From the NCBI GenBank assembly GCA_016870995.1, contig VFZU01000016.1, forward strand, positions 1 to 64,000: 64,000 nucleotides of DNA, written 5' to 3'. The stretch comes from Acidobacteriota bacterium (lineage in GTDB: Bacteria; Acidobacteriota; Terriglobia; Bryobacterales; Bryobacteraceae). The notes under the pieces were generated by a model. That model was not told the DNA's origin, ran no database searches, and saw only the letters and a program-made list of their open reading frames with translations. Shown piece after piece: positions 6,798-8,121 of the stretch; position 1 is the first letter of the stretch; each line of letters opens with the position of its first letter. The translations under genes were made by a program, and so were the position numbers.

Positions 6798-6947
6798 ATG
6801 CGTGGTGTCAAGAAACAACACTTACCAACCAAAATCTGCTTGGTCTGCAAGCGACCCTTTGCGTGGCGCAAGAAATGGGAGCGCGACTGGGAGCATGTGC
6901 TCTATTGCAGCGACCGATGTCGGCGCGAAAAGCAGGCCCGAGCATGA
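6798..6947 (+). CDS. DUF2256-type small cysteine protein
   Basis: A 49-residue gene easily missed for its size. It reads [17 protein letters not shown] at the start, then [15 protein letters not shown] and a second cysteine pair in [15 protein letters not shown]. The CxxC-x19-CxxxC arrangement and the WRKKWxxxW block match the DUF2256 family, which I know mainly as a small neighbour of photolyase/cryptochrome genes. The cysteines could hold zinc. Its TGA (6945-6947) overlaps the ATG of the FAD-domain gene (6944) by four bases, so the two are co-translated. Function is unknown; position points to a role with the photolyase-like pair. Confidence 0.85.
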
Positions 6948-7726
6948 TGCGCCGTGACATCTCTAGTCGTGAAGAGATGGCTTCCTATCTGGCCGCAGAG
7001 TTTCCCAATGCGGCGCGAAGGGATGCTTCGATTAGCCCAATCCGCGGAGGCCGCCTGGCTGCAGAGGCCGCCCTTGAAGCTATCGAGCCGAGTCGATATG
7101 GCTTCGATCGCAACTATCTCGACGGACACGTAACGCGGCTCTCGCCCTACATCCGGCACGGCATCCTCACGCTGAAGCAAGCGAAAGAAGTAGCCTTCAC
7201 GAAAGTCTCAGACCGGTTTCATGCGGCCAAATTTGTCACCGAGCTCGCCTGGAGGGATTACTGGCAGCGCCTCTATGCGGTTCTGGGCCGCAAGGTTTGG
7301 GAGGATCGGGAGGAGTCGAAAACAGGGATCCCGCCTCACACCTATGCCCCGGCGATGCCTGAAGATGTCTCTGCGGCGCGCACCGGGTTAGTCTGCATCG
7401 ATTCGTTTGTTACCGAGCTTAAGTCTACTGGTTACCTGCACAACCACTCGAGAATGTGGTTTGCAGCCTACTTGGTTCACTTTCGCCGGGTCCGCTGGCA
7501 AGCAGGAGCAAAGTTCTTTCTTTCGCATCTTCTCGATGGCGACCCGGCCTCAAACAATCTCTCCTGGCAATGGGTGGCGAGCACTTTTGCGCATAAGCCC
7601 TATTTCTTCAATCGTGAAAATCTTGAAAAGTACACCAAGGGCAAGTACTGCCGGAATTGCCCGGTGCGGGGCCGTTGTGATTTCGAAGGATCTTATGAAC
7701 AGTTGGAGGCGAAGCTGTTCCGATGA
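6944..7726 (+). CDS. Stand-alone photolyase/cryptochrome FAD-binding domain with four Cys
   Basis: 260 residues homologous only to the C-terminal FAD-binding half of the photolyase/cryptochrome family. Recognisable blocks: [13 protein letters not shown] (about 64-76), [23 protein letters not shown] (162-172, the HNR-type motif), [13 protein letters not shown] (198-210) and [16 protein letters not shown]. The usual N-terminal alpha/beta antenna domain of about 130-200 residues is absent; a similar domain is encoded by the next gene. C151 plus C236, C239 and C245 ([11 protein letters not shown]) resemble in placement the four ligands of iron-sulfur photolyases, one before the HNR motif and three at the end. 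ATG 6944 is chosen because it overlaps the DUF2256 stop. Whether it repairs DNA or senses light cannot be told. Confidence 0.85.
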
Positions 7727-8121
7727 GCGAACTCATCTGGCTTCATCCAGATTGCCTGACGGCAAACAACCCGGCTTTTGCCAAGTATCCGCAGGTGCCT
7801 TCGTTGTTCGTATTCGACGAAGAGGAAATCGCCGAAGAAGAGTGGACGCTAAAGAGGATCGCTTTTCTCTACGAGACATTGCTTGAACTTCCCGCAGAGA
7901 TAGATCGGGGCAAAGTTGTTGAGAAATTGTTGGCGCGACGTCCTTCGAAGATCGTCACTGTTAGCAGCGTCAATCCCCGCTTCGCTCAGTACGTTCGAGC
8001 ACTGGAGCGAGCCGTGAAAGTTGAGGTTCTCGCGGCAGAGCCCTTCGTGGATTGCCCAGCGAACGTTGATCTCAAACGCTTCTCAAGGTATTGGAAGCGA
8101 GTCGAGCCAATGCTATTCTGA
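7723..8121 (+). CDS. Small protein resembling the photolyase N-terminal alpha/beta domain
   Basis: 132 residues. ATG 7723 overlaps the FAD-domain stop by four bases. The opening LIWLHPDCLTANNPAF and SLFVFDEEEI resemble the start of photolyases (a strand, then a basic loop with DNPAL, then a strand), and the middle LKRIAFLYETLLELPAEI and IVTVSSVNPRFAQYVRAL fit the following helices and strands of that alpha/beta fold. It ends with DLKRFSRYWKRVEPMLF. It would complete the FAD-domain protein as a two-subunit enzyme in reversed gene order. The domain assignment is by eye and should be tested by structure prediction; the gene's reality is well supported by overlap and length. Confidence 0.7.
   Translation: MSELIWLHPDCLTANNPAFAKYPQVPSLFVFDEEEIAEEEWTLKRIAFLYETLLELPAEIDRGKVVEKLLARRPSKIVTVSSVNPRFAQYVRALERAVKVEVLAAEPFVDCPANVDLKRFSRYWKRVEPMLF

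Follow-up and report, generated by a model that had tools for sequence, protein, structure and literature searches.

Within the 64,000-nucleotide stretch of acidobacterial DNA analysed here (the window), one gene encodes only the FAD-binding half of a photolyase. Is the missing alpha/beta half supplied by the gene that follows, and what would the two chains form together with the small cysteine protein encoded ahead of them? A first-pass annotation had proposed a two-subunit flavin and iron-sulfur (Fe-S) protein, for repair or light sensing, with a small metal-binding helper. We consider it likely that the locus encodes a two-chain flavin and Fe-S photolyase, most likely acting on pyrimidine dimers (CPD), with the DUF2256 protein probably accessory.

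Organisation of the locus

The unit and its 5′ neighbour are laid out as follows (window positions):

5174-6760, serA-like phosphoglycerate dehydrogenase gene, 5′ of the trio
6798..6947, + strand, leading gene of the unit, for a small (49 aa) cysteine protein of the DUF2256 family (PF10013)
6944..6947, + strand, ATGA stop/start overlap between DUF2256 and the FAD half (sequence)
6944..7726, + strand, 260-aa FAD-binding photolyase half of the SPL / Phr4 type, carrying four cysteines of the Fe-S type (PF03441)
7723..7726, + strand, ATGA stop/start overlap between the FAD half and the alpha/beta half (sequence)
7723..8121, + strand, separate alpha/beta subunit of the photolyase N-domain type, 132 aa, Phr5 type (hhalign, fold)

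As first described, the three genes are coupled by ATGA overlaps; both overlaps and all reading frames were located. Only 37 bases separate the end of the serA-like gene from the trio, which makes read-through transcription possible. Directly 3′ of the trio lies a SIS-domain gene (Pfam), and the three neighbours that Pfam names are metabolic or SIS-domain genes.

At eight loci in relatives of the same genus (L002-L007, L013 and L014) an extra photolyase gene is found 3′ of the split pair, where the window has the SIS-domain gene; the one in L005, the sole one of those named by Pfam, combines PF00875 and PF03441. A one-chain PF04244 photolyase (512-aa frame) is also encoded in the window's genome (G000:C91:2250-2903). 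The only Rfam match above the gathering score in the window is a tRNA-Ser (gct) at 22848-22941.

The FAD-binding half and its cysteines

The 260-aa protein matches PF03441 (Pfam, E 9.1e-24) and has no alpha/beta domain within the same chain. Its sequence matches in the PDB fall on the FAD domains of photolyases, which bears out that the middle gene encodes the FAD half only. The structural model (pLDDT 82) is photolyase-like, with Z about 16 at the top.

The cysteines C151, C236, C239 and C245 were invariant in a 26-row alignment. For a broader view, 133 related sequences were aligned and 28 identical ones dropped; among the 105 distinct rows, C151 was kept in 104 and each of C236, C239 and C245 in 103. 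All exceptions were gaps, never another residue. In a profile alignment with PF04244 frames, the four positions land on the cysteine columns of Fe-S photolyases; this reference set comprised 26 long frames, a few of which are probably in the wrong frame, and 18-19 of the 26 carry the cysteines. The four cysteines are thus placed as in Fe-S photolyases, exactly at the positions first proposed.

The downstream protein as the alpha/beta half

Searched on its own, the 132-aa sequence matched nothing significantly in Pfam, NCBIfam or the PDB. The profile of its family, however, aligned with the N-terminal halves of photolyases over 136 columns (hhalign 98%, E 2.4e-13), the target being 26 full-length chains, FeS-BCP among them, that had been picked for their FAD domain. 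With the PF04244 set as sole target the match was weaker (67.8%, E 4.9e-5), and in a control against the FAD half it was 0.5% (E 0.12). PF00875 was matched at E 0.05 or better by 19 of the 26 family members (best 1.4e-5), the window's protein not being among them. An earlier profile built from 12 sequences had matched a 502-aa photolyase frame of genome G123 in its N-terminal half (E 2.3e-4); this match, from the partner search in a 396-genome draw, is a full-length photolyase and was not taken as a separate partner.

A model of the protein from the alignment of 26 relatives reached pLDDT 91, and in structural alignment the first 36 rows were all photolyases or cryptochromes. Three matches were tied at the top: CryB (3zxs) with Z 11.9 and 2.0 A over 106 residues, and, both at Z 11.5, PhrB (4dja) and E. 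coli photolyase (1dnp). Counting against the identity is the closeness of the universal stress protein fold, the first other fold in the ranking (Z 9.1), together with weak matches to Usp (Pfam) in 4 of the 26 family members (best 0.0024; the window's protein has none). Foldseek moreover places some phosphopantetheine adenylyltransferases beside the photolyases, so that the fold alone is not decisive. It is the sequence profile that decides, with the fold in agreement: the 132-aa protein is the missing alpha/beta half. Both the alpha/beta fold and the reversed domain order, proposed from the reading frames alone, were borne out by these comparisons.

Co-occurrence of the two halves

We searched for both genes in several genome sets, some of whose members are shared among the 80-locus, 41-genome and 146-genome sets described below. 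Among the window's own genome and 60 relatives, the partner was found in 12 of 61, and 10 of the 12 loci held the complete trio in the same order, which argues that the arrangement is more than chance. Of the remaining two loci, one is truncated where its contig ends, and the other is an orphan (G009). In a search of 41 genomes, SPL was present in 14 and the partner in 14 of these 14; a second match in G183, a 537-aa frame, was left uncounted.

A scan of named genomes gave 567 confirmed SPL loci, of which the best 80 were taken. The partner was present in the same genome for all 80. In 50 of them the two genes share a strand and the partner lies downstream by no more than 600 nt, two of these 50 loci being cut by contig ends; a 4-base overlap was seen in 15 of the 50 near-partner loci, by the script's choice of start codons. 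For the other 30 of these best 80, the partner was found elsewhere in the genome every time: on the same contig in seven (at most 8 kb off in six, about 35 kb off in the seventh) and on other contigs in 23. As these are draft assemblies, non-linkage in the 23 is not proven. Four of the 30 (L027, L047, L069 and L075) had under 400 bases available downstream, and the partner match in the genome of L069 is partial.

In the cyanobacterial phylum (146 genomes), the same 25 genomes carry SPL and partner (Fisher 1e-28, a value that ignores shared ancestry); this SPL count leaves out three matches (in G667, G746 and G776), each a single chain whose frame is 385-451 aa long. Seventeen of the 25 pairs lie within 3 kb, four share a contig at a distance of 0.48 Mb or more, and four are divided between contigs. 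In G156, G183 and G225, three of the 14 SPL-bearing genomes from the 41-genome search, one contig carries both genes at a distance of about 1 Mb or more, and in total at least seven genomes (G156, G183, G225, G691, G704, G728 and G730) have the halves 0.48 Mb or more apart on a single contig. The locus L090, labelled Acidimicrobiia, falls in the acidobacterial phylum, since the genome set of its phylum contains the coordinates of G156 and G183. In that set G589 and G616 repeat the places of these two genomes, and five genomes have only weaker SPL matches in longer frames.

The pair was thus conserved elsewhere, the partner being present in every SPL-bearing genome where it was sought. The trio, in contrast, was kept only in part: it was complete in 10 of the 12 loci described above, whereas DUF2256 lies just upstream of SPL in only 1 of the 65 cyanobacterial-labelled loci among the best 80 of 567. 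One observation counts against the two-chain reading: G009 carries a divergent orphan partner gene (L279:3774-4310) and no SPL was found in that genome at E 1e-30. The gene adjoining this orphan is MiaB-like.

Fused forms in Deinococcus

On four Deinococcus plasmids (L173, L175, L275 and L174), the halves are fused in three and split in the fourth. The fused chains, 456-472 aa long, have the FAD half first, and the fourth plasmid carries two overlapping genes. In our tree the fused forms nest within the SPL clade (support 100/98), so that the split state most likely came first and gave rise to the fusion. With a branch length of 4.62, FeS-BCP is placed with uncertainty, and so is the order of the photolyase classes. 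Taken together, the partner in every SPL genome tested, distant genes included, and the Deinococcus fusions indicate that each SPL is probably one half of an enzyme with two chains.

DUF2256 in the vicinity of photolyase genes

The first gene of the unit belongs to DUF2256, as had been supposed (PF10013, E 7.3e-23; the score of 80.9 bits compares with a cut-off of 25), and it is the sole DUF2256 match in its genome. Of the 15 loci among the best 80 of 567 that are not labelled cyanobacterial, 13 have DUF2256 upstream of SPL at a distance of about 100 bases or less. Most of the cyanobacterial-labelled genomes checked encode DUF2256 elsewhere. Overall, 41 of the 44 SPL-bearing genomes checked have DUF2256 somewhere, while G455, G465 and G487 gave no match.

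In the cyanobacterial draw, DUF2256 was present in 25 of 25 SPL-bearing genomes and in 40 of 121 others (Fisher p 7e-11, ignoring shared ancestry). As this phylum includes small-genome members without DUF2256, the association is partly one of lineage. In the acidobacterial phylum, DUF2256 was found in 27 of 38 genomes with a PF04244 photolyase and in 17 of 358 without (Fisher p 1e-21, likewise ignoring shared ancestry).

Two Chloroflexi-labelled loci (L089 and L091) have an FeS-BCP-like gene, DUF2256, SPL and the partner in a nearly gapless row; a third (L079) has the same order with about 1.2 kb between the FeS-BCP-like gene and DUF2256. In G242, DUF2256 directly precedes an FeS-BCP-like gene. 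Most of 59 DUF2256 loci, seen with flanks of up to 1.5 kb, had no adjoining FeS-BCP or SPL gene. Genome context therefore fits a role of DUF2256 as helper of Fe-S photolyases only in part. The two papers found on DUF2256, judged by their titles and the starts of their abstracts, show no photolyase connection.

Relation to known photolyases

The annotation had held that no member of the kind had been characterised, and this part of its reading did not stand. Haney et al. 2022 (PMC9426592) describe phr4/phr5 and a fused phr6 in marine Synechococcus and Cyanobium, and remark on the reversed order and the cysteines of phr4/phr5. In their work a phr4 insertion mutant showed UV-C survival reduced 20-30 fold and no effect at the UV-B dose used, and E. 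coli carrying phr4/phr5 was protected after UV-C but not after UV-B, with no significant difference between light and dark. As in the window, the genes are adjacent with the FAD half first and the photolyase domain second, and fused versions exist; C169, C254, C257 and C263 of RS9916 Phr4 have the same 85/3/6 spacing as C151, C236, C239 and C245 here. The Synechococcus genes, however, are seven base pairs apart, whereas the window has two ATGA overlaps with DUF2256 leading, and the hosts are picocyanobacteria rather than an acidobacterium (whose genus mates are labelled, for example, Bryobacter sp.). Hence phr4/phr5 is the known kind, and the acidobacterial locus is a member in a new lineage of a kind that is more widespread.

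A second strand concerns SPL. Like these proteins, the window's FAD half has no alpha/beta domain in its chain. The Rhodococcus fascians protein is among the published SPL sequences, and some SPL members have the four cysteines. The FAD half fits the SPL class named by Xu et al. 2021, of which SePhrC of S. elongatus is a published example. As far as the sources describe it, the alpha/beta domain is lacking in this class (PMC9178010, PMC9498864, PMC9649867), whereas here it is encoded by a separate partner gene. The literature surveyed, mostly as titles and abstract starts and largely outside subscription journals, gave no statement of a separate alpha/beta partner for SPL, and the main text of PMC9426592 as available held no mention of SPL, DUF2256, Deinococcus, Acidobacteria or Chloroflexi. 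The SPL (2021) and phr4/phr5 (2022) strands thus appear unconnected in the papers surveyed, and are joined here.

Other classes resemble the pair in one respect and depart from it in another. FeS-BCP photolyases share the alpha/beta and FAD folds and have four cysteines in aligned columns, but they are one chain with the PF04244 alpha/beta domain first, and neither window protein contains PF04244. Class I CPD photolyase (E. coli, 1dnp) likewise shares both folds, in one chain with alpha/beta first; the E. coli enzyme is not known to have the Fe-S cysteines. NewPHL (Phr7, Emmerich et al. 2020; via PMC9426592 and PMC13274461) has the FAD half first and another domain second, as here, but is described as one chain without Fe-S cysteines; one 2026 paper groups NewPHL and SPL together as inverted. 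Its C-terminal domain looks similar to the partner on inspection, but the profile match was weak (hhalign 4.5%, E 0.009; six chains, labelled NewPHL-like by architecture). In a Persicobacter frame (L177:2701-4044, 447 aa) the domain C-terminal to the FAD half looks distantly alpha/beta-like by eye, and its match to the partner was not significant (3.8%, E 0.011).

Proposed mechanism and alternative explanations

We propose that the 260-aa chain would bind FAD and, via its four cysteines, an Fe-S cluster. The 132-aa chain would dock onto it and shut the flavin site, perhaps bringing an antenna pigment with it. Once excited by light, reduced FAD would donate an electron to UV-damaged DNA, splitting the lesion, most likely a CPD. 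DUF2256, translated just ahead, is probably accessory, in folding, cofactor loading or DNA contact. FO synthase (CofH, TIGR03551) passed the cut-off in just 5 of 24 SPL-bearing genomes, the window's not among them, and 3 of the 24 had no match at all; the surveyed genomes include drafts, which may be incomplete, and matches below the cut-off are presumably menaquinone enzymes. This scarcity makes 8-HDF unlikely as a general antenna.

Which lesion the pair would repair is suggested by its active site. The counterparts of E. coli photolyase E274, W277, N341, M345, N378, W382 and W384 are kept in at least 101 of the 105 distinct rows, while at the position of R342 every row that has a letter shows His. 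At the lesion site the SPL family has His-Asn (N167), whereas the aligned Fe-S photolyase has His-His, a pair that we take to be catalytic in FeS-BCP. The kept CPD-type residues and the exchange of the second His for Asn suggest repair of CPD over (6-4) products. A two-chain (6-4) photolyase is what Haney et al. predict from the cysteine set (PMC9426592), and the characterised Fe-S photolyases, with which the four cysteines align, repair (6-4) products; the phr4 mutant's sensitivity to UV-C and not to the UV-B dose used could be read in the same way. We nevertheless regard a (6-4) enzyme as unlikely: N167 and M171 follow CPD enzymes, SPLs are cited as a CPD class (PMC9649867), and in L089 and L091 the unit directly follows a complete FeS-BCP-like gene, beside which it would be redundant. 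Repair itself also fits better than a cryptochrome-like light sensor. Some Fe-S photolyases are sensory as well, such as R. sphaeroides CryB (PMC9178010), but the repair-site residues are conserved, a phr4 mutant of the relative is UV-sensitive (PMC9426592) and the Pfam-named neighbours are of metabolic or SIS-domain type, so that we consider a sensor very improbable. What remains odd for a photolyase, and counts against our reading, is that the protection by phr4/phr5 in E. coli is light-independent and absent after UV-B (PMC9426592).

It may also be asked whether two separate chains act together at all. SPL was named without an alpha/beta domain, and at least seven genomes encode the halves at a distance of 0.48 Mb or more, as might be seen if the FAD chain worked alone and the alpha/beta protein had a separate task, for instance regulatory or as an antenna. 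The SPL that Xu et al. expressed is reportedly active (cited in PMC9649867), so that the partner may be dispensable for catalysis. Yet the partner is missing from no SPL-bearing genome where it was sought, and the Deinococcus fusions join the two halves; a one-domain enzyme therefore seems quite doubtful to us. The opposite possibility, a single protein made from both genes by programmed frameshifting, was considered by Haney et al. for phr4/phr5 (PMC9426592), and close gene coupling and fused versions elsewhere would suit it. Each window gene, however, has its own start in the ATGA overlap, and the distances in the same seven or more genomes lead us to reject frameshifting as a general rule; for the window we hold it to be extremely improbable. 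A heterodimeric photolyase is thus the reading that we retain, and part of the original interpretation stands with it: the two halves, the reversed order, the Fe-S type cysteine set and the conserved pair. The metal-binding helper stays a putative one.

Implications for the photolyase family

It has been suggested that the photolyase family may descend from SPLs. This argument weakens if each SPL has an alpha/beta partner gene, and purified 'short' enzymes would then need to be tested again together with their partner. What is new here is the strict pairing, even with genes far apart, the Deinococcus fusions, the connection made with the debate on SPL, and the context of DUF2256. Tentatively, one may go further and suppose that all SPLs of the Fe-S type are subunits of an obligate two-chain photolyase, and so not the one-domain ancestor, with DUF2256 as a dedicated assembly or DNA-contact factor common to bacterial Fe-S photolyases; we regard this wider proposal as possible, though somewhat doubtful. 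DUF2256, a family of unknown function, gains a testable context, and the split enzyme offers an explanation for the supposedly 'half-sized' photolyases.
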